Source: a virus
Virus record (IMG/VR): IMGVR_UViG_3300045684_000013
Span: 1 to 64,000 of that record
Length of the DNA stretch: 64,000 nucleotides
Direction: 5' to 3' (one strand)
How positions within the stretch are numbered: position 1 is the first letter of the stretch; each line of letters begins with the position of its first letter. A program made the position numbers and the translations under genes. Positions 9,876 to 44,492 of this stretch are shown here, one piece after another. Below the pieces are notes generated by a model. The model did not search any database and was not told where the DNA came from. It saw only the letters and a program-made list of their open reading frames with translations.

Positions 9876-11006
9876 TTAAAGGGCACCACATGCCTGACCT
9901 TCTGCAAAGGCACCAACTGGCAGCTGCCAGACAGATGAAGGCACCAGCACAGGTGTTGTGAATTCTTCTGTGGCCTGTTTCCACCAAAAGGCATCCACAT
10001 TCATTGGTGTGCCCTTGGCTGCAAATTCAATGATGTCTGTTTTGCGTTTTAAGGTGAAGCCAAGTTTTTCTTCAGTCATGGCAATGTTCATAATCTTGGA
10101 TTCATCATATTTTGCAATGGTGGCAAATACATCAGGACCATTGAAAATGTAGGTCTGACAGCTGCAACGTGACCAGCCACAGAAATATGCAGGATGCGCC
10201 ACCACACCATGTGCCTTCATTTCATCCCACACCTGCTGTTCCGGCCAGTCAATGACAGCCCTGAACTGAATCACTTCACGGTTGAATTTTGGGCTGTCAG
10301 TGGCATGTAATTCAGCTTTCAGATATTTTGCACGGTTGGCTGATTCTTCACGTCTTTCACCAGTCAGCACCAGCACCTGTGCATCTTTGGCAAACATCTT
10401 TCTGATGACCGTTTTGCACACATCAATCTTCACCACACTGCTGCACCATCTTGATGCCAAGTCAGCTGCAATGGCTGGAAATTTGCCACGGGTGCTGCTG
10501 CCTGCATTGGCAGCCACTTTGATGAATTCGCCACCTTCTTCAGCCTGATAAAAGACATCCTGAAGGCCTTCATTTTTCCGGTTGATTTCACGCTGTATGC
10601 CACCAGCCCTGAAGGAATAAAGCAAGGGCAGGCCAAAGGCCTTGGCAAAGGCTTCACAATAGCTGTCTGTTCCTTTCCAATCCCAAATGTTGCCACCTTT
10701 GCCATCCACCAAATGGTGCATCAGAACAACACGTGACATATCAATGCCACGGTTGATCAAATCAAGCACCATGGCAACAGAATCCTTTCCACCACTGAAA
10801 CACACCACAATGGCAGCATCAGTCTGGTGCAGCAGGTATTCAGCACGATCAATTGTATCTGTGCCAATGGCTGCCTTCAGGTCATGAATTTTCTGAAGCG
10901 TTTCATTGGTTGCCGCCAAGTTGCCTGCTGTTGATTCTTCCTTTGCCTGCTTTCTTAGTGTGGCAAGCTGCTTGGTGTTGGTTCTGATGGTCTGAATTGA
11001 TGTCAT
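9876..11006 (-). CDS. PAPS reductase family (PP-loop) protein
   Basis: 376 aa. The PP-loop SGGKDS at residues 71-76 binds ATP or adenylyl-sulfate in this family. TGERREES at about 215-222 and HPAYFCGWSRCSC at about 271-283 match conserved motifs of PAPS reductase/DndC-like proteins; Cys188, 276, 281 and 283 could hold a 4Fe-4S cluster. An N-terminal helical extension of about 55 residues precedes the catalytic core. Phage members of this family have been linked to sulfur assimilation or to DNA phosphorothioation through DndC, but no other dnd gene is present here, so the substrate is unknown. The leader carries an intercistronic hairpin followed by ACAACATCAACATC. Confidence 0.85.
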   Translation of the reverse strand: MTSIQTIRTNTKQLATLRKQAKEESTAGNLAATNETLQKIHDLKAAIGTDTIDRAEYLLHQTDAAIVVCFSGGKDSVAMVLDLINRGIDMSRVVLMHHLVDGKGGNIWDWKGTDSYCEAFAKAFGLPLLYSFRAGGIQREINRKNEGLQDVFYQAEEGGEFIKVAANAGSSTRGKFPAIAADLASRWCSSVVKIDVCKTVIRKMFAKDAQVLVLTGERREESANRAKYLKAELHATDSPKFNREVIQFRAVIDWPEQQVWDEMKAHGVVAHPAYFCGWSRCSCQTYIFNGPDVFATIAKYDESKIMNIAMTEEKLGFTLKRKTDIIEFAAKGTPMNVDAFWWKQATEEFTTPVLVPSSVWQLPVGAFAEGQACGAL

Positions 11007-12713: not shown

Positions 12714-12791
12714 GATGTTGATGTTGCTTGAAATAAACGTATCATGCCTGAAATGGTTTTAGCTATGTAAGATTTTGTCTAATTTGTGGCC
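12714..12791 (+). promoter_or_regulatory. Divergent intergenic promoter region
   Basis: 78 bp between the leftward 12713 gene and the rightward minor-head gene. The plus strand has AAATAAACGTAT followed by CCTGAAATGG, a weak match to the class-2 promoter motif. The minus strand has TACGTTTA, 7 of 8 matches to TAnnTTTG. Both directions are presumably started here. Confidence 0.4.
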
Positions 12792-14999
12792 ATGGCAAAG
12801 CGTGAACAAATCACACCTGTTGGCACATCTGAAGCAATCCTGTCAATCATCTTGAATGCATCAGGCCAGCTAAATGATGCCCAACAGGCAGAGCAGCAAA
12901 GAATTTGGGAATGGGTGCAAAAAAAGCTGATGACTGGAAAGCTGGCATTGGACCTGAAAGAAAATGCAGATGGCACGCAAGGCATCAAGCCCACAGCTGC
13001 AAATGTAAAGAAAGTAAATGGCTTAATGAATCAGCTAAACATTGCGGCTGACCCTGACAGAATTAAGGATGCAGTCAAAACATACAATGAAGCAGCACAG
13101 CAAGCCAGCCAGACAAATCAAAAATACTACAAAAGCGAATTTGCAAGCTATGTTTTCAAGCCAGCTTTCAACATTCCAATTCAGAACCTGATTCAAACAA
13201 CACTGGATTCAACAACGCGCGGTCAATACACATCAGCCTTTGTCAATCCAATCAGGCAGACCATTTTCAAGCATGTTCAGACGGGTGCCAATTTTCAGAC
13301 ATTGGTTGATGGCCTTCAGTATCAGATTACAGGTATTTCACCAAACACGTCAAAAACTTGGGCCATTAGAAATGGCCTGCTTGAAAATTACCACCAGCTG
13401 AAAAGGCTGACACGTGACACCATGTTTCAGACATTGGCCAATGAAACAGATGCAGTGGCCAATGCACTTGGACCTGACACTGCATGGTATCAATACATTG
13501 GTGGACTTGTGGAAGATAGCCGGAAAGAATGTATCAGAAGGCACAAATTGCGCTACTTCAGCAGGAAGGAAGTTGACAGCTGGAAGAAGCTGACCAAAAA
13601 GCAATGGCCTGAACAAATCCCCAACATTGAACCAATTGTGCAGCGTGGTGGCTGGAATTGCCTGCATGACTTACGGATTATATCGGTCAGGAGGGTGCCA
13701 GAAGAACGGCTGAAGCAGTCATTGGCACAGGGCTTTATTGATCAGAAGCAATTTGATGAAGCCATGAAGGCCAAAGGATTTGACACCACGGCAAAGCCTG
13801 CACCACCTGTGGCAAAGCCTGCACCACCTGTGGCAAAGCCTGCACCACCTGTGGCAAAGCCTGCACCACCTGTGGCAAAGCCTGCACCACCTGTAAGTAA
13901 AGCCGCATCTGTGCCCGAAATTGACAGGGTGATTGACTTGAAATCTGAATTAGGTACAAAATCTAAAAATATACCAAAGGGTAGCAATGCTAAAATGGAA
14001 GCTTTATTTAAAAAGCATGGAATTGCTTCTGAATTTGGTGAAGTGAGAAAGGGAAGGAGGGTTGAAAAAGACAGCTTTGATGGACTGCCAATATCTTCAA
14101 TTGAGAAAATGATCAATACTGCCATATATGTTCAGAAAAAGTATGGCTATGTTGTCAGGATTGATCCAAGCGACATTGACAAAATAAAAAAGGCAGGAAA
14201 CGGAACAGCAAGCATTGCCCAATTTGATGGTTCATCAACTCAAAAACGTTTTACCTTTGGCAGAAGCACACACAGGAATGCAAACATGTCAGCGAATGGT
14301 GCAGGTGTCTTCATTTCTTCAAAATATGCGAAAGGCAGTTTTATTGAACAGATTGGCAGGAATAATTTTGAAGATGCAAGAAAACTGGCAGCAGTGGAGG
14401 CAAAGAAGGCAATGGTTACATGGCAGGAACTTCAGGACGAATTGACAAAAAGAAAAGAAAATGGTGAAAAACTTGCAGTTTGGGAGCGTAAAAATTTATT
14501 CAATTCAAAGGGTGCCATCAGGCAGCTTCAGAAAACCATTGACAACGCGAACAAACCAATAGAAGCGGGTGATTTTCAGCAATGGTCATTGTCAAGGGAT
14601 TCAAGAGTGCTTAATGAAGATGCAACAAATGCAATCAGAAACACAACATTGCACGAATTTGGCCACGTGTTACATTATCAAGCGTTCGGAATGAGTGGAA
14701 GAAATGTGAATGAACAGCCATACAGGACAACTGCTGCTGTGCTTTCTGATTCAGATGCTTACAGGATGCGTAGAAGGTGGACAGATTTATATTCAAAATA
14801 TGGAGATAGCGAATGGACACGCACTTATTCAAAGTATGCATCAAAAATGGAAGTCGAATTGTTTGCAGAAACATTTTTGATGTATGACAGAAGGCCTGAT
14901 TTGTTGCCAGCTGAAATCAGGGATTTTATGGATGAATTGTTTGAAATTCAGAGAAAAAGCATTCAATATTTCAAAGAAAATGAAATCAAATACAACTAA
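12792..14999 (+). CDS. Minor head protein fused to a zincin metallopeptidase domain
   Basis: 735 aa from ATG 12792. The N-terminal half is a Mu gpF/SPP1 gp7-type head morphogenesis protein; the diagnostic part is GLVEDSRKECIRRHKLRYFSR followed by RGGWNCLHDLR. A linker of five AKPAPPV repeats (residues 334-368) connects to a C-terminal domain. That domain carries HEFGH at about 621-625 and a downstream Glu in VELFAETF, the pattern of gluzincin-type metallopeptidases. Minor head proteins often carry C-terminal effector domains that may be injected with DNA. Peptidase activity is predicted, target unknown. Confidence 0.8.
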   Translation: MAKREQITPVGTSEAILSIILNASGQLNDAQQAEQQRIWEWVQKKLMTGKLALDLKENADGTQGIKPTAANVKKVNGLMNQLNIAADPDRIKDAVKTYNEAAQQASQTNQKYYKSEFASYVFKPAFNIPIQNLIQTTLDSTTRGQYTSAFVNPIRQTIFKHVQTGANFQTLVDGLQYQITGISPNTSKTWAIRNGLLENYHQLKRLTRDTMFQTLANETDAVANALGPDTAWYQYIGGLVEDSRKECIRRHKLRYFSRKEVDSWKKLTKKQWPEQIPNIEPIVQRGGWNCLHDLRIISVRRVPEERLKQSLAQGFIDQKQFDEAMKAKGFDTTAKPAPPVAKPAPPVAKPAPPVAKPAPPVAKPAPPVSKAASVPEIDRVIDLKSELGTKSKNIPKGSNAKMEALFKKHGIASEFGEVRKGRRVEKDSFDGLPISSIEKMINTAIYVQKKYGYVVRIDPSDIDKIKKAGNGTASIAQFDGSSTQKRFTFGRSTHRNANMSANGAGVFISSKYAKGSFIEQIGRNNFEDARKLAAVEAKKAMVTWQELQDELTKRKENGEKLAVWERKNLFNSKGAIRQLQKTIDNANKPIEAGDFQQWSLSRDSRVLNEDATNAIRNTTLHEFGHVLHYQAFGMSGRNVNEQPYRTTAAVLSDSDAYRMRRRWTDLYSKYGDSEWTRTYSKYASKMEVELFAETFLMYDRRPDLLPAEIRDFMDELFEIQRKSIQYFKENEIKYN
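13791..13895 (+). repeat. Five tandem 21-bp repeats (AKPAPPV linker)
   Basis: Unit GCAAAGCCTGCACCACCTGT plus one variable base, repeated five times in frame and almost identical. Encodes a Pro/Ala-rich flexible linker between the head and peptidase domains. Near-identity suggests recent expansion by slippage or unequal recombination. Confidence 0.95.
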
Positions 15000-31260: not shown

Positions 31261-31617
31261 ATGGGATTGACTAAGACAGACAAGCAGCCAAGCATTCATG
31301 CATTCTTCAAAGACCTTCAAAAATTCAATGAAGAAATTGGCATCAGTTCACACAAGCAAATGATTTTGCTTTCTTATGTTTATGAAAATGACCTTGAATC
31401 ATTCACACCTTCTGACCTGATTTATTGGACAGGCATGCCAAAGGTGACCACATACAGATTCTGTCAGAATTTCTGTGACAATGGGCTTTTTACAGACCTT
31501 GGCAAAAAGGTCAGCAAGCCTGTCACCACTGGTATTGACAACAGAAGCAGGCTGCTAAGGGTGGACAAGAAAAGCAAGGTTTGGAAAAGTTTCAAAGCAC
31601 TTGCATTGTCAATGTAG
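31261..31617 (+). CDS. Winged-helix DNA-binding protein
   Basis: 118 aa. The segment HKQMILLSYVYENDLESFTPSDLIYWTGMPKV... followed by a basic wing (RSRLLRVDKKSKVW) is a MarR/initiator-type winged helix. It has its own transcript start after a terminator and lies upstream of the nuclease and replication genes, so it may be the main phage regulator. Target unknown. Confidence 0.65.
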   Translation: MGLTKTDKQPSIHAFFKDLQKFNEEIGISSHKQMILLSYVYENDLESFTPSDLIYWTGMPKVTTYRFCQNFCDNGLFTDLGKKVSKPVTTGIDNRSRLLRVDKKSKVWKSFKALALSM

Positions 31618-31639
31618 TATCAACATCAGCATCACATCA

Positions 31640-32245
31640 ATGGTTTATTTATTTCACTTTGATTCAAAGCTGTCACATGCACAGCATTACTGTGGATATA
31701 CAGAATCCTTCAGGGCTGATGACAGGCTTGAACAGCACATGAATGGCACTGGTGCAAAGATCATGAAGGCAGTGGCTGAAGCCAGCATCAGTTGGCTGAT
31801 TGCACGTATCTGGCCACATGGTGACAGGGATTTTGAAAGACATCTAAAGAACAGTAAAAATCTGAAAAGGGTTTGCCCTGTTTGCAATCCTAATGGATGG
31901 CGCACCAGCCAAGAAAAATCATATCAATCCTGTTTGCAAAGACGTGCAGAACGTCTTCAGATTGGGCTAAAAAGGCAGCCAATTACAAAAAACAGCAGGC
32001 TTGCAATTGGCTGGTTTGGCATTCCTGCCATGCCCGCCAGTAAATCAACAAAGACACACATTGTTGATTCAAAAGGAAGGCCACTGTGTGGATGCAGAAT
32101 CAGTGTTGCCAAGTCCTTCCAGTGGTGCCAAACATTTCTAATGAAGGATGTGGCCAGCAGAACCATTGCAGCTGAATGCAGGAAATGTGAACAATCATTG
32201 TCAAAACTTAGAAAAATCAACAACATCCGATCATGGGAAGATTAA
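31640..32245 (+). CDS. GIY-YIG nuclease-family protein
   Basis: 201 aa from ATG 31640 after a leader with repeated ATCAACATCAGCATCACATC. Motifs: VYLFHF at 2-7, HYCGYT at 16-21, R29, GTGAKIM at 37-43, E66 in FERHLK, and CPVC at 79-82. These match a phage/actinobacterial GIY-YIG family that reads HYxGWT..RL..H..G.GA. The C-terminal half is basic with more Cys pairs. It may cut DNA at junctions or be an anti-host nuclease. Overlaps the next gene. Confidence 0.75.
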   Translation: MVYLFHFDSKLSHAQHYCGYTESFRADDRLEQHMNGTGAKIMKAVAEASISWLIARIWPHGDRDFERHLKNSKNLKRVCPVCNPNGWRTSQEKSYQSCLQRRAERLQIGLKRQPITKNSRLAIGWFGIPAMPASKSTKTHIVDSKGRPLCGCRISVAKSFQWCQTFLMKDVASRTIAAECRKCEQSLSKLRKINNIRSWED

Positions 32246-33051
32246 AAACTGAAACAATAGTCAGACACAGTGCTGACATGAAGGAATTTATGAAAGTCAG
32301 TTTCACTGTGAACGTCACCACGGAAGGCCAGTTCAGCACAACGCTGAAGCCAGAAGATGTGGACACCATTGAAGCTGCTGGTGTCAGCCTTGAACACCAC
32401 AGAAACAGAATGAACAACAAAGGATTCTTTGATGCGCCAACACTGTCAGCTTTGAATTTACAGGTGGCTGAAGTGCTGGATGAATGTTTGTCACGTGTGC
32501 TGGAATCAGAAGTCATCATCATCAGGTATGCCATCAGATCCACATGCAGTTTTGGCCTGACAGTTGATGGTGAAATAATACCCAATTTGAACTGGGAGAC
32601 TGATGGTGAAGTTGATCAGCAGAAAGGCTGGCAGGACGGAAGCCACAGCACACATTCTGCCAGTCCTGCTGCAACTGGTGTTCTGTTTTATGCAAAGCCA
32701 TTTGTAAAAAGATCATTCAGATATAAGTCTGGTGACGTTCGTGTGGAATATGGCAATATTGAAGAATGGGATCATCACGGAAACACAGAAACACCAACAG
32801 ATGAAACCAATTACAATCTTCGCTATTTGGACACCATTGCAGCCACTGTTCCACCTTCTGGATATAAGGTCAGAACCGTTGAAATGGACTACAACGAAGA
32901 CCGTGCAGCCTTCTTTGTCAAGCTTTACAAAGGCCTGTGCAAATTGGCTTTCATGCTTGGAACCTTGCATGATAAAGACAAGATGATACAGATGATTGAA
33001 TCTGGTGGCCAGTTATTTTTGACAGCACCTCCAAATCAAATCGAAGAATGA
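32233..33051 (+). CDS. Hypothetical protein coupled to helicase
   Basis: 272 aa. Soluble, beta-rich and acidic, with a Ser/His/Gly stretch (DGSHSTHSASPAATG). It overlaps the upstream nuclease gene by 13 bases and the helicase gene by ATGA, so it probably works with the recombination/replication genes. Not recognised. Confidence 0.6.
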   Translation: MGRLKTETIVRHSADMKEFMKVSFTVNVTTEGQFSTTLKPEDVDTIEAAGVSLEHHRNRMNNKGFFDAPTLSALNLQVAEVLDECLSRVLESEVIIIRYAIRSTCSFGLTVDGEIIPNLNWETDGEVDQQKGWQDGSHSTHSASPAATGVLFYAKPFVKRSFRYKSGDVRVEYGNIEEWDHHGNTETPTDETNYNLRYLDTIAATVPPSGYKVRTVEMDYNEDRAAFFVKLYKGLCKLAFMLGTLHDKDKMIQMIESGGQLFLTAPPNQIEE

Positions 33052-34763
33052 GCAACATACAACCAAGATGGTACCAGATGCCATCAATCAGCAGTCTGCT
33101 GGATGGCTGGAATCTGCAACAGCCTGAAGCATCTGCATACAAAAGGCAGTTGCTTCAGGCACCAACTGGTGCAGGTAAGACATTCATTTTCAATTATATT
33201 GCTGATTGTCTGATTGAATCAGGTCATGCACCAGTTCTGGTGTTGTGCCATAGGGTGGAACTGGTCAAGCAGGCTGCACAAAAATTCTGGCAATGGTTTG
33301 GCGGTCACGCTGATATTATAAAAAGTGGTATGGGCAGGTCACGTTCATTCCCTTTCAAGGTGGCCAGCATCCAAACACTGCATGCCAGACTGAAGAAAAA
33401 AACGGTTGAAGAAATATTTGGCATTGTGCCCACTTTGGTCATTGTTGATGAATGCCACCACCTGAAAGCCAAAAGCTGGCTGGAAGTAATAAACGCATTC
33501 CCTGATTCGCTTTTGCTTGGTGTGTCAGCAACGCCAATCAGAATGGACGGCACAGGTTTCAGTGAATGTTTTGACAGGCTTGTGCCATTCATACAGGTCA
33601 GGCAGCTTGAAGACATCTGGAAGGCTGACAGCAGCAGGCTGACAGGGCTGGTGCCTGACTTGATTCATCAGGTGAAATTGATACCAGATGCCAGAAAGCT
33701 GAAGGTCAAGGCTGGTGAATATGACATGAAACCACTGAATGAAATTCTGAACACAGATGAAACGTGTCAGACCGTTGTTAACTTCTGGAAAGCGCACGGT
33801 GGAGGTGATGAACAAACCATTGCATTTTGCATCAAGGGTGGCAAGGGAATTGAAAAAGGCCATCATCAAAGGTTGGCAGAAACCTTCATCAAAAATGGTG
33901 TCACTGCTGCATATTTGGATGGCAAAACAGATGACATTTTGCGTGACCAGATTTTGAAGGGCTTTGAAAGAAAAGAAATTCAGGTTTTGTGCAACATTGA
34001 AATTGCAACAGAAGGCTTTGATGTGCCCAACATTGGCTGCACCTTGATGTGCAGGCCAACAAAGTCGCTGGCATTGCATATTCAGATGGCAGGACGCGGC
34101 AAGAGGCCATCAGCAGGCAAAAACGTCCACATTATGATGGATTTCGTGGGCAATTGCCTGCTTCATGGCAGGCCAAATGAAGAAAGAAGCTGGACGCTTG
34201 AAGGCATTAAGAAAAAGAAGAAGAAAAAGACACTTGTTGATGTGGATGGCCAATTGATGGACATTGATGATTTTGAAAACATGGATGTTGACACCACTGG
34301 CATTCCAATGACTTATGAAATAATTGAAATTGAATCTGATGACTTCAGGTTTGCAGGATTCAAAGAAATCCTTTTCAATGTCAGGGAAAATTACAGAAAT
34401 CCAGATGATGCAATAAAGGCTGCATTGGCACAATGGTACGCTGAAGTGAACCACAGCCCTGACATCATTGAACTGACAGCAATTGCACGTCACGTTTTTC
34501 CAGATCAAAACAAAGCAAATTGTGAGCGTTGGGCATGGTCAAGATATGAGAAATTCAAGCTAATTAATCAAATGATTGACACCTGTCAGAATGTCAGGCA
34601 GGCAGGCGACATCATTGATGCCATTGATGCTGTATTTGTTCAGCAGGGAGATGTACAAATAAAGGTGCCATTGGCTGGCCATTTTGGATTGAAGACCAAG
34701 GTCACAAATATGATCAGAAGCAGATGGCTGCCTGATTATGTTCCAAGTGCAGCAACTAGATAA
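33048..34763 (+). CDS. SF2 DNA helicase (DEAD/DEAH-like)
   Basis: 571 aa. Walker A APTGAGKT at 38-45, Walker B DECHH at 134-138, motif III SATP at 160-163, and motif VI QMAGRGKR. It has the two RecA domains expected of a phage helicase of the UvsW/RecG-like SF2 type. A Lys-rich run of eight residues follows the helicase core, then a long C-terminal extension with an acidic part. Would unwind branched or recombining DNA during replication. Confidence 0.85.
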   Translation: MSNIQPRWYQMPSISSLLDGWNLQQPEASAYKRQLLQAPTGAGKTFIFNYIADCLIESGHAPVLVLCHRVELVKQAAQKFWQWFGGHADIIKSGMGRSRSFPFKVASIQTLHARLKKKTVEEIFGIVPTLVIVDECHHLKAKSWLEVINAFPDSLLLGVSATPIRMDGTGFSECFDRLVPFIQVRQLEDIWKADSSRLTGLVPDLIHQVKLIPDARKLKVKAGEYDMKPLNEILNTDETCQTVVNFWKAHGGGDEQTIAFCIKGGKGIEKGHHQRLAETFIKNGVTAAYLDGKTDDILRDQILKGFERKEIQVLCNIEIATEGFDVPNIGCTLMCRPTKSLALHIQMAGRGKRPSAGKNVHIMMDFVGNCLLHGRPNEERSWTLEGIKKKKKKKTLVDVDGQLMDIDDFENMDVDTTGIPMTYEIIEIESDDFRFAGFKEILFNVRENYRNPDDAIKAALAQWYAEVNHSPDIIELTAIARHVFPDQNKANCERWAWSRYEKFKLINQMIDTCQNVRQAGDIIDAIDAVFVQQGDVQIKVPLAGHFGLKTKVTNMIRSRWLPDYVPSAATR

Positions 34764-34816: not shown

Positions 34817-36550
34817 ATGACAGAAAAACAAACCAGTGGCCAGCTTTACAATGGCCTAAAACTGGAAGTAGTAACACAGCAGGGCGATTTGCCACAGAAG
34901 CCACCAATTTTGCTGATATATGGTGCAGCAGGCATTGGCCTGACAACCTTGGCAGTCACTGCCAGCGAAAATGCATTATTGATTGACTTTGATGACAGTG
35001 CAAGACGTGCTGCCTTTCAGGCCAAAGAAACCATCATTTTTCAGAAGTACGAACACATTGTTGAAGCCATTCACAAAGGCTGGTTTCTGGCAATGCGTTC
35101 AAGGTTTGACACCATCATTCTGAATGGCCTGAATGAACTGGTGTCTGATTCAATTATACCTGCTATTCAGCGGAATTTTCCAATGACACAGCAGCCTGAA
35201 CACTTTCTTGAAATGTACAGGCTAGTTGGTGAAGCCTTTCAGGAATTATTTGCCACCATCACTGACGCAGGGTTTGCCGTTGTGATCACAGCAGACAGGG
35301 CAGAGCAGAAGACATTGGCAGGCACTGACCATGCAAGATGGCAGCCTGCTGTGATTGGGAACAAAGTTTTGAATATTGTCATGAATCGTGCTGACATGGT
35401 TGGTTTCCTCCACATGGTCGGTGGTGACATCAGGTATCTTTCATGGAATCCTTCAGCCAGCTATGAAGCCAAAAACAGTGCGGGCCTGCCCACACTGAAA
35501 GTTGAATCAGGTGGCAATGATGATTTCAGAAGCCTGCTTGCAAATCATGTCATCAAGCCACTGGCAGAAATGCAGAAAAACATGCTGTCTGGCAGCCGTG
35601 CCACTTTGATCAATTCATTTGAATCCAGCCTGCTTCAGGCACCAAATCAGCAAGCTATCAACACGCTGAAGACGCAAATTAACAGCCTTGCAGCTGACCT
35701 TCAATTCGTACTGGCTGGCTCTGTGGAGGCAGCAGAAAAAAGGGTGAAGCCTTTAGGTGCTGTGGATATGGAAGCAATCAAAAGCATTGTCAGAAGTAGC
35801 CCAAAATTTGCAAACAAGTTTCCAGAAAGCATGCAGGTGGCTGACCCTTCTGACCACAGTGAAATGCTGGCAAAGTTGGCAGGACAAAAGGATTTGTCAC
35901 TTGACAATCCTGCCAATGCTACCTTTCTTGGGTATAATGAAGACGATGTGAACATGGCCATTGATGCAATGCAGCCAACTGGCATCAACCCTGCTGATGT
36001 TATGGTTGCTGGCCAGAAGTTTTCTTTTGTGCAGCAGGAAGCCCACACAGCCACAGAAGAAGAACTGAAGCTGATGGCGCAAACCATATCAGCTGCACAG
36101 AAAATTCAACAGCAGGCTAGTCAGTCAGATGATGTGGTGCCAACTGATTTCATTCACATTCCAGATGCTGAATTGAAAGCCATTGACACACTTTCATCAA
36201 ACGTGCAGAAAATTGCCTCCACTTTTGGTGCAATTGTTGACATTCCCACTGCCAGCCAGCACAACAGCAATGAAATGGTTGCACAGGCAGTGTTGGCATT
36301 GACTGGTGTGGCAGAACTGCTGAAAAGAAAGGATGCCATCAATATTGAAACCGTCAAAACATGGGCCTTGGTTCCAAGGCTTCAGAAAATGTACAACTTC
36401 ACACCCGAAATGGTTTCTGCCTTCAGCGCAGAACAATGGCAGCACATCATCATGGAAGCAAATAACAGTATAAAGGCCAAAATTGCACTGAATGAATCTG
36501 AAATGCCTGATGGCAGTGATGAATCAGACGACCTTGATTTGCCATTCTGA
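34817..36550 (+). CDS. Sak4/AAA_24-like ATPase with degenerate Walker motifs and SSB-like tip
   Basis: 577 aa. The N-terminal ~210 residues have the AAA_24/Sak4 layout: IYGAAGIGLTTLA at 35-47, LIDFDD, and RFDTIILNGLNEL. In this family the first motif is normally GxxGxGKT; here the catalytic Lys is replaced by Leu42, and the Walker B Asp position reads Asn103. The C-terminal half is helical with no known domain. The last residues DDLDLPF resemble the acidic tip of SSB that recruits repair proteins. Probably a recombination or annealing partner without normal ATP hydrolysis. Sits between helicase and nuclease genes. Confidence 0.7.
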   Translation: MTEKQTSGQLYNGLKLEVVTQQGDLPQKPPILLIYGAAGIGLTTLAVTASENALLIDFDDSARRAAFQAKETIIFQKYEHIVEAIHKGWFLAMRSRFDTIILNGLNELVSDSIIPAIQRNFPMTQQPEHFLEMYRLVGEAFQELFATITDAGFAVVITADRAEQKTLAGTDHARWQPAVIGNKVLNIVMNRADMVGFLHMVGGDIRYLSWNPSASYEAKNSAGLPTLKVESGGNDDFRSLLANHVIKPLAEMQKNMLSGSRATLINSFESSLLQAPNQQAINTLKTQINSLAADLQFVLAGSVEAAEKRVKPLGAVDMEAIKSIVRSSPKFANKFPESMQVADPSDHSEMLAKLAGQKDLSLDNPANATFLGYNEDDVNMAIDAMQPTGINPADVMVAGQKFSFVQQEAHTATEEELKLMAQTISAAQKIQQQASQSDDVVPTDFIHIPDAELKAIDTLSSNVQKIASTFGAIVDIPTASQHNSNEMVAQAVLALTGVAELLKRKDAINIETVKTWALVPRLQKMYNFTPEMVSAFSAEQWQHIIMEANNSIKAKIALNESEMPDGSDESDDLDLPF

Positions 36551-36633
36551 AGCAGACAAAAAAAAATAAACATTGATAATAGGCTGAAGGCCACCAAAGG
36601 TGGTTGGGTGTGATGGTTGATTTCAAAAGAATT

Positions 36634-37503
36634 ATGAGCAATAAAAAAATTCAAATATCAGTCAGCAAGTTGAATCAGTATCAGCAGTATTTATTGAAAA
36701 CTGAAATGCCTGCCAAGAATGAAGATGGCACCACATACCGTGACGAAAATGGCAAAGTGAAAATGACCGTGCTGTTTCCAGACCTTGAAACACTTTTCAG
36801 CAGCTGGCTGGAAAAATCACAGGCTTCACAGGCCATGGCTGTTGGCACAGCTGTTCACCTGTTTATTGAAACGGGTGGTGAATGCAATGTTGGCCAATAT
36901 GGTGCTTGGCATGGCTTTCAGGCACCACATGACCAAGGATTTGATATATTCATTCCAGACTATCAATTGACTGAAGTGAAGCAGTTTGTGGAGGCCACAA
37001 AGCATGCAAGGGAAGCTGAAGTGACGGTTGTGCCATGGGAATTTGAAATTGATGGTTTTCAGGTTGTCATCAGTGGCAAGATTGATGGCAAGCTGAATGG
37101 TGGCCAGCTGCTGGAAGATCACAAAGTATCAACATCAAAATGGAATCCAGCTAAAGATTGGGATGGCGGCAAGTCACCAAATGAAAAACTGTTTGCCAAA
37201 TTTGATGAAACCGTGCAGCATGATTTTTACATGTGCATGGCTGGTGCTGAAAAATTTGCTTACAATCAGTTTTGGTTCAGGCCTGCCAACCGTGGTGAAT
37301 TGTGGTCACCTACAACTGAAGGTTGTTTTATTTTGGCTGGTCAGGCCATGTTTGAAAGAAAACCTGCCTTGGTGCCAACCATGAAGGAATATTTTGAAGC
37401 AGTCATGCATGATTTGATTCAGACGGGATTTGCTGACAAGCTGGCTAAAAAGCAGGCATTCTGGATTGAAAAAAGATGGCCTGAAAAAACGTGGAAAGTA
37501 TGA
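36634..37503 (+). CDS. PD-(D/E)XK nuclease, Cas4/RecB-like
   Basis: 289 aa from ATG 36634 (an upstream ATG at 36613 is possible). VSKLNQYQQ at the N-terminus, AVGTAVHLFIE with H75, SGKIDGKL with D151, and LLEDHKVS with D162 and K164 are the RecB-family core. Family members act as 5'-3' exonucleases. Coupled with the Sak4-like gene upstream, it could form a phage recombination pair. Stop overlaps a small ORF by ATGA. Confidence 0.8.
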   Translation: MSNKKIQISVSKLNQYQQYLLKTEMPAKNEDGTTYRDENGKVKMTVLFPDLETLFSSWLEKSQASQAMAVGTAVHLFIETGGECNVGQYGAWHGFQAPHDQGFDIFIPDYQLTEVKQFVEATKHAREAEVTVVPWEFEIDGFQVVISGKIDGKLNGGQLLEDHKVSTSKWNPAKDWDGGKSPNEKLFAKFDETVQHDFYMCMAGAEKFAYNQFWFRPANRGELWSPTTEGCFILAGQAMFERKPALVPTMKEYFEAVMHDLIQTGFADKLAKKQAFWIEKRWPEKTWKV

Positions 37504-38333: not shown

Positions 38334-38762
38334 ATGAAGCCACAGAAGAAGCAGTCATTGGCAGACTGGAAAATCATTGGCAACCGTGCAAGAATTGCTG
38401 CCAGCGTATGTCAAAAGTATGGCATCAGTTTTCAGCAGCTGGACAATGCCAGCCCACACCCAATTGCACCACCATGCAGGATGGTCAATGCTGGCATGAC
38501 AGATGCCCAACAGGCACAATGGGACAGCGAAGGCGCAAACTTGTCAGCAGCCTTCAGTGAATATGTCCAGCGTTGCAAGGATGCGCACTACATAAGCAGC
38601 CACCAAGCCAAACCAAAGACTGAAAAAGCAATTGGGAAAACAGCTGTAAGGGATTGCACAACATGCAATTCATTCATTCATGGCCAGTGTGGCCACGGTG
38701 CCAACTTTGGTGCCAGATGCATTGCAGAAGAAAAATATAAATTTTGGAAAAAGCAGAAATAA
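38334..38762 (+). CDS. Zinc-binding protein, unknown
   Basis: 142 aa with leader CAACATCAATACAGGTCAAAT. The C-terminal 35 residues contain CTTC, CGHG and a further Cys, a probable zinc finger. Basic at both ends. Stop overlaps the next ATG (TAATG). Confidence 0.55.
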   Translation: MKPQKKQSLADWKIIGNRARIAASVCQKYGISFQQLDNASPHPIAPPCRMVNAGMTDAQQAQWDSEGANLSAAFSEYVQRCKDAHYISSHQAKPKTEKAIGKTAVRDCTTCNSFIHGQCGHGANFGARCIAEEKYKFWKKQK

Positions 38763-39199
38763 TGGAAGCAGTAAAAATTGAACATCAGCAATCAGAAGTG
38801 GGTGGCACTTATACTCCACATGAAGCCACGGTAAATGGCACCAACTACCCTGCACAACTGCCTGACAATGACAGGGCAGTGCTGGCCTTGGTTCGTGGTA
38901 AGTTTTATACATTGCCACTGGTTGTCAGGCACGCAGACCGTAGCTGGCAATTTCATAGTTATGGACGATGGAAGTGTATAGAAAATGGCACCAACTACCC
39001 TGCACAACTGCCCGACAATGACAGGGCAGTGCTGGCCTTGGTTCGTGGTAAGTTTTATACATTGCCACTGGTTGTCAGGCACGCAGACCGTAGCTGGCAA
39101 TTTCATAGTTATGGACGATGGAAGTGTATAGAAATTACAGAAAATGTGCTGTCATGGGCTGAATTGCCTAATGAATGGGCTGAAGAAATGAACATCTAA
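38762..39199 (+). CDS. DUF551-like protein with tandem-duplicated module
   Basis: 145 aa from ATG 38762. Two consecutive 50-residue copies of a module (NGTNYPAQLPDNDRAVLALV to SYGRWKCIE) are followed by a short SWAELPNEW tail. The module plus tail resembles the phage DUF551 family, which normally has one copy. The DNA repeats are nearly identical, so duplication is recent. The protein's role is unknown. Confidence 0.6.
   Translation: MEAVKIEHQQSEVGGTYTPHEATVNGTNYPAQLPDNDRAVLALVRGKFYTLPLVVRHADRSWQFHSYGRWKCIENGTNYPAQLPDNDRAVLALVRGKFYTLPLVVRHADRSWQFHSYGRWKCIEITENVLSWAELPNEWAEEMNI
38834..39133 (+). repeat. 150-bp near-identical tandem duplication
   Basis: Copies 38834-38983 and 38984-39133 differ at one visible position, CTGCCTGAC versus CTGCCCGAC, which is silent. 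In-frame duplication inside the DUF551-like gene. Confidence 0.9.
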
Positions 39200-43901: not shown

Positions 43902-44492
43902 ATGAATTGGAATCAGAACCAGCAGCCACCAGCTGCACAGCCACCAGCTGCACAGTCACCACAGGGCCAATGGAACCAGCCACCAGCACCCGTACAGCCA
44001 CCACAGGGCCAATGGAACCAGCCACCAGCTGCACAGTCACCACAGGGCCAATGGAACCAGCCACCAGCACCCGTACAGCCACCACAGGGCCAATGGACCG
44101 GAAACCAGCAGGCCAACAACAGTGGCGGCGGTTATGATGGCCAAAATAAAAAAACGCATATCGGCAAGGGAAAGCCAGCCAATAGCCAATGGGTTTTGGC
44201 AAACCTGTTTTTCAACATTGCCCAAATTCCTTTGCAATGGATCAGGATGAAGAACAGCACAAACAATCCAAATGTTGAGGCTGCCTTTCAGGCATTCATG
44301 CAGGCACTTCAAAACCTTCAGCAGGTGATCAGTCAGCAAGGTGGTCAATGGGATGGCCCACAGGTCAGGGTGTCAGTGAAGAACATGCGCCAAGCTGACA
44401 GGGCTGGCAACACATTGACCATGTATATCAATGAATTCATTCCACAGCCACAGGGTCAACGCAATCAGGCACAGGGCCAGTGGAACCAGTAG
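43902..44492 (+). CDS. Gln/Pro-rich repeat protein, unknown
   Basis: 196 aa. The first 70 residues repeat the units QPPAPVQPPQGQW and QPPAAQSPQGQW, encoded by tandem ~39-bp DNA units, and look intrinsically disordered. Residues about 82-175 form a compact helical/strand part (KGKPANSQWVLANLFFNIAQ to AGNTLTMYINEF). The tail returns to GQ repeats. Its own promoter and the large terminator after it suggest high-level independent expression. It may be a single-strand DNA-binding or condensate-forming replication protein; unproven. Confidence 0.6.
   Translation: MNWNQNQQPPAAQPPAAQSPQGQWNQPPAPVQPPQGQWNQPPAAQSPQGQWNQPPAPVQPPQGQWTGNQQANNSGGGYDGQNKKTHIGKGKPANSQWVLANLFFNIAQIPLQWIRMKNSTNNPNVEAAFQAFMQALQNLQQVISQQGGQWDGPQVRVSVKNMRQADRAGNTLTMYINEFIPQPQGQRNQAQGQWNQ
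43918..44100 (+). repeat. Tandem Pro/Gln-coding repeats
   Basis: Alternating ~39-bp units built around CACCACAGGGCCAATGGAAC, present four times, encode the Q/P-rich N-terminus of the 43902 protein. Near-identity indicates slippage or recombination. Confidence 0.8.

Follow-up and report, generated by a model that had tools for sequence, protein, structure and literature searches.

The gene at positions 34817-36550 raises the question of what a Sak4-like phage protein may still do when the lysine of its Walker A motif is replaced and when it ends in a tip of the SSB type. The need of Sak4 for the ATP site is itself unsettled. For HK620 Sak4, ATP was strictly required for ssDNA binding and annealing (PMC5928155). 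In contrast, the Walker A variant K30A of PA73 Sak4 was partly active, reaching 2-fold above background compared to 4-fold for the wild type, a 1.7-fold loss (PMC5499656, PMC5928155). This result was first read as ATP-independence, a reading which the authors later doubted (PMC5928155). A natural Sak4 without the lysine and with an SSB tip in cis allows both the ATP need and the role of the tip to be tested in a single polypeptide.

The stretch of DNA analyzed here, called the window, comprises 64000 bases of a virus record of 66406 bases, which may be a fragment. Judged by its terminase and tape-measure genes the source virus is a tailed phage. The phage is isolated, since its terminase showed at best ~38% identity over the full length to known terminases; a DNA-level match to any phage record was not found. 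The host is likely a member of the Bacteroidota. This is suggested by the BT4734-like domain of the primase, by Flavobacterium and Cellulophaga phages among the nearest phage relatives and by the Sak4 relatives found in genome contigs, which were mostly from Bacteroidota. Among the minus-strand ORFs of the window a PAPS-reductase-type gene was found (9876-11006, minus strand; phrog_424, 6.2e-26), a metabolic gene in a phage.

A Sak4-like core with a long C-terminal extension

The gene and the parts of its product were assigned as follows.

34817-36550, plus strand: Sak4-like gene, 577 aa, ATG start (PHROG_124, PF13479 and coding statistics)
34904-35533, plus strand: RecA-like core, residues 30-239 (AF2 pLDDT mostly >90; best PDB match 8rc5)
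35534-36511, plus strand: helical C-terminal part, residues 240-565 (AF2; low confidence beyond about residue 300)
36527-36547, plus strand: SSB-type acidic tip DDLDLPF, predicted to be disordered (pLDDT ~38)

The reading frame, the two motif changes and the tip described in the earlier note were all found in the sequence at the positions given there. The coding signal revealed a mean codon log-odds of +0.45 for the N-terminal and +0.56 for the C-terminal part, compared to -0.23 and -0.64 for the other two frames of the same strand.

Profile searches identified the protein as a member of the Sak4 family. PHROG_124, the Sak4-like annealing proteins, matched residues 23-253 (3.9e-23), and Pfam AAA_24 (PF13479) matched residues 31-220 with 62.9 bits, compared to a cut-off of 27. 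An AlphaFold (AF2) model was built with an alignment of 43 sequences. Its core corresponded best to the solved Sak4 of the Stl2 complex, 8rc5 (VIA Z 18.4, rmsd 3.2 over 194 residues; Foldseek 2.3e-7), which was also retrieved when the family alignment was used as a profile (1.2e-8). The next-best solved fold reached Z 14.2; RAD51 and RAD51-paralogue complexes scored ~14, and RecA also ranked behind 8rc5. Thus, the Sak4-like identity put forward in the earlier note was borne out by the profiles as well as by the structure comparison that it had proposed. The phmmer matches of the whole protein in the PDB were chance matches (kinases, E >0.5). The solved Sak4 differs from the phage protein in its length of 279 aa, in its P-loop GKFGTGKT with the lysine kept and in having no long extension; the identity is 16%.

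A sample of 171 distinct Sak4 relatives was collected by alignment-based scanning, twice of viral contigs and once of genome contigs. The lysine was not the only basis of selection, as the pattern of the first scan ended before it and some of the later patterns were placed outside the P-loop. All relatives are remote, with an identity of at most ~31% in the best segment. They are also shorter, mostly ~311-315 aa and at most 387 aa, compared to 577 aa here. No close relative was found in viral contigs by a protein-only scan, and tblastn against phages and plasmids yielded identities of at most 28% or nothing. Among 395 genomes from the phylum of the genome carrying the Millionella locus L114 (G001), four contained matches, all of them remote. 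A DNA pattern for the leucine-bearing P-loop gave 16 matches in viral contigs, none of which was a Sak4 by inspection. In locus L201 a 66-base unit is repeated ~4.5 times near the end of the record (2182-2478, record end).

Within the C-terminal part, residues 240-313 are helical and align with the C-terminal helices of Sak4. The extension proper, residues ~314-565, had no match in Pfam or in the other searches and no detectable relative; in the AF2 model it is helical with low confidence. A hidden SSB in this extension was considered and found no support, as no profile matched and the models, including a single-sequence model whose mean pLDDT of 46 is too poor for fold comparison, contained only helices. 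An OB fold was likewise not detected; the protein matched no SSB profile, and the models showed helices only, at low confidence in the extension.

Replacements at the nucleotide site

The motifs of the nucleotide site were located in the gene, and residue conservation was counted over 42 non-redundant relatives aligned with its product.

34922-34948, plus strand: P-loop GAAGIGLTT, Leu42 replacing the Walker A lysine (Lys in 42/42 aligned and in all 171 inspected relatives)
35111-35125, plus strand: Walker B strand TIILN, Asn103 replacing aspartate (Asp in 42/42 aligned relatives)
34985-34993, plus strand: retained DFD motif, Asp57 and Asp59 (invariant in the relatives)

Both replacements had been described in the earlier note and are real features of the sequence: Leu42 is encoded by CTG at 34940-34942 and Asn103 by AAT at 35123-35125. 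Even in loci L120 and L255, where the P-loop reads GQPGVRKT, the lysine is kept. Two further positions near complete conservation are changed in the phage protein, namely Thr104 (42/42 aligned relatives; T104G) and His160 (41/42; H160D). These two residues are not universal in Sak4, as the protein of Shewanella phage S0112 differs at both, and the solved Sak4 8rc5 carries glutamate at the Walker B position. Consequently, the strong statements are the loss of Lys42 and the loss of an acidic residue at position 103.

Other invariant residues were retained. Asp57, Asp59, Arg64, Asp193 and Lys219 occur in 42/42 aligned relatives, Asn220 in 41/42 and Arg206 in 40/42, and all of them are kept here. 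The DFD motif was placed at the DAE/E96 region of RecA, and we infer that it is equivalent to RecA E96. Further conserved positions are altered, for example G61S, K153F and G135R. Judged from the sequence, residue loss is thus concentrated at the nucleotide site and not confined to it, and the protein may have lost ATP use and ATPase activity.

The earlier note had taken a lysine kept in the relatives as a sign of a sequencing error. The first half of this proposition stood, because all relatives indeed keep the lysine. They are however so remote that the phage protein appears as an exception and is not shown to be a sequencing error. A one-base error is excluded, since two or more substitutions separate the lysine codons AAA/AAG from the leucine codon CTG. 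Leu42, Asn103 and the tip are known from a single sequence, with relatives at no more than ~31% identity, and may or may not be fixed in a lineage.

One of the closest comparisons is with the Sak4 proteins of Bacteroidota phages and prophages (for example L202, L206, L009 and Bacteroides phage BS-TP2), which reach ~31% identity in the core as a maximum. They share DFD, R64, D193 and K219 with the phage protein. In contrast to it they all keep the Walker A lysine and none of them carries an SSB tip, and many have a tip-bearing ORF of SSB size nearby. A working Sak4 is defined by features of its ATP motifs, and these were looked for and found replaced. We therefore assign the protein as a Sak4 homologue by descent and do not file it as an ATP-dependent annealase of the Sak4 type.

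The SSB-type tip and the neighbouring genes

The protein terminates in ...GSDESDDLDLPF. As in bacterial SSB (DDDIPF), a disordered tail closes with an acidic run followed by a hydrophobic residue, proline and phenylalanine; unlike in bacterial SSB, the tip is attached to a RecA-like core with a helical extension. A composition estimate gave P ~6e-6 per protein for the chance occurrence of such a tip (at least three acidic residues in five, then [LIVM]PF). Among the 2802 ORFs with a length of 90 aa or more in the window and in part of the surveyed loci, acidic ..PF tips occurred on the 577-aa protein, counted twice as window and as locus L001, and on 35 SSB-sized ORFs (95-227 aa), which were called SSB-like by size, place and tip and were not each confirmed by a profile. 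Several of these, for example in L003 and L007, have an evident SSB-type N-terminus. No acidic PF tip was found among the 171 Sak4 relatives (0/171). The SSB-like nature of the tip, as recognized in the earlier note, is therefore confirmed. DDLDLPF is similar to the tips of DDLPF type that end SSB-like ORFs of related loci, most of them from Bacteroidota.

In many other Sak4 loci such tips lie on separate genes. Where enough downstream sequence was available (107 loci), an acidic ..PF ORF of SSB type followed within 6 kb in 35/107, at a median distance of 870 bases; under a looser rule an SSB-type ORF was near Sak4 in 61/107. The genes for Sak4 commonly adjoin ssb or DUF669 and helicase genes (PMC8093625). 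Here neither ssb nor DUF669 was detected near the gene, the DUF669 search being without a match in control genomes as well. PF00436 had no match in the whole 66406-base record, profiles built from the SSB-like tip ORFs had none either (E >= 0.15), and reading of the last 2.4 kb of the record revealed no SSB-like ORF. The record may encode an SSB of an unrecognized type, or the phage may use the SSB of its host.

Two neighbours are probable partners of the protein.

33048-34763, plus strand: SF2 helicase, probable partner (nearest curated model RadD, below cut-off)
36604-37503, plus strand: RecB/Cas4-like nuclease, probable partner (PDDEXK_1 E 0.017, below cut-off)

The helicase lies directly upstream and was identified, in agreement with the earlier note, by ResIII (2e-27) and phrog_16 (6.7e-75). 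With the curated RadD model it scored 104 bits compared to a cut-off of 720. The SSB-tip pocket of RadD includes Arg49 and Arg145 (PMC10238739). In the alignment of the helicase to the RadD chain neither of these positions is arginine, and Arg21 lies outside the aligned part. Docking of the tip on the adjacent helicase via a RadD pocket is thus not supported, two of three arginines being absent. The other neighbour is a likely nuclease, in line with the earlier note; the motifs GTAVH, GKIDG, EDHK and QHDFY were recognized by eye in its sequence, and the profile match stayed below the cut-off. The ATG at 36634 is the likelier start of the nuclease gene.

On a Porphyrobacter contig (L175, 999-5013) a Sak4 gene stands in a row with ORFs for a small protein, for a nuclease-like protein and for a helicase like that of the window, a module similar to that of the window in another gene order. 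Upstream of the recombination genes of the window a weak GIY-YIG match was noted at 31601-32245 (E 0.0092, below cut-off).

Possible modes of action

As the best explanation we propose, tentatively and with a chance that we put somewhat below even for the whole, a divergent pseudo-ATPase Sak4 that acts on ssDNA free of an ATP switch and carries its own SSB-type recruiting tail. The nucleotide site would be disabled and the RecA-like core would persist. This core would bind ssDNA, and perhaps anneal strands, constitutively, whereas ordinary Sak4 is switched by ATP. The DDLDLPF tip would do the job that usually falls to a separate phage SSB and would dock into the SSB-tip pockets of DNA-repair proteins of host or phage. 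The docked proteins would then be brought to the ssDNA on which the adjacent helicase and nuclease have acted. Loss of ATP use, ssDNA binding, tip docking and this division of labour are all inferred.

HK620 Sak4 belongs to the same profile family, is likewise linked to an SSB tip and is part of a phage recombination module. Loading of HK620 Sak4 on SSB-coated DNA, and good annealing, required the six C-terminal residues of the partner SSB (PMC5928155). Since HK620 Sak4 needs the tip of its partner SSB, a tip on Sak4 itself is functionally plausible. In HK620 the tip sits on a separate SSB ending in NDYPPF, whereas here it is found on the Sak4-like protein. A second difference concerns ATP: HK620 Sak4 possesses Walker A and B and needs the nucleotide, whereas the site residues are replaced here. 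As HK620 Sak4 is strictly ATP-dependent, the loss of the site could simply mean a loss of function. The earlier note saw in the phage protein a possible recombination mediator of an unusual kind; HK620 Sak4, the only Sak4 studied in depth, is an ATP-dependent annealase and according to its authors not a recombination mediator (PMC5928155).

Several points stand against the proposed pseudo-ATPase Sak4 with a recruiting tail. No close relative shows the changes conserved, the extension is without a homologue and its model is of low confidence. The RadD-like helicase is devoid of two pocket arginines, an SSB may have escaped detection, and the record is possibly incomplete. The stronger claim of a fused, ATP-independent annealing factor of RecA fold, which dispenses with nucleotide switch and separate SSB and organizes repair partners by its own tip, is possible and rather doubtful.

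In an unlikely alternative the tip fills an SSB-tip site on a Sak4 core, either its own or that of the neighbouring subunit, so that no external partner is involved and the tip replaces ATP as a switch of assembly or regulation. To our knowledge an SSB-tip pocket has not been mapped on Sak4. In the model the tip is undocked as well as disordered, monomer prediction being a weak test. The placement of the tip on a long, partly disordered extension would nevertheless suit such docking, and for HK620 Sak4 a response to the SSB tip was seen on ssDNA (PMC5928155).

Slightly less likely still is a structural pseudo-enzyme whose sole role would be to scaffold another recombinase and whose tip would be a secondary adaptor. 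Degenerate Walker motifs are known from eukaryotic Rad51 paralogues, namely RIP-1 and the Shu complex proteins Psy3/Csm2, which have a retained RecA-type fold and lost nucleotide motifs (PMC4518479), just as the core fold is intact here while the nucleotide site is lost. These paralogues differ from the phage protein in being eukaryotic, remote in sequence, heteromeric with Rad51 and devoid of an SSB-type tip. The record contains no second AAA_24/Sak4 protein, which would leave host RecA as the partner; for HK620 Sak4 and E. coli RecA, however, a functional interaction was not found (PMC5928155).

It is improbable that the gene is decaying as selection relaxes or that a normal Sak4 was altered by chimeric assembly. 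The single record and the missing close relatives would fit, but the gene has 577 uninterrupted codons with a uniform coding signal, the two or more base changes at the lysine codon are joined by changes at D103, T104 and H160, and an SSB tip is a positive feature and not a product of decay. Least probable of all is that the tip competes with host SSB for partner proteins and blunts host repair, as its likeness to the tips of mostly Bacteroidota loci might suggest, because the gene lies within a replication and recombination cluster, its recombinase core is kept and nothing points to inhibition.

Apart from the recombination genes, repeats were observed in the window. A near-perfect tandem duplication of 2 x 150 bases (99%) lies at 38833-39134 inside ORF 38744-39199 and repeats a protein segment of ~50 residues; it is either recent or an assembly effect. 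At 43938-44097, near the start of ORF 43902-44492, an exact 2 x 81-base repeat is rich in Pro, Gln and Ala codons. A 21-base unit is present in five exact copies at 13790-13894 within ORF 12786-14999.
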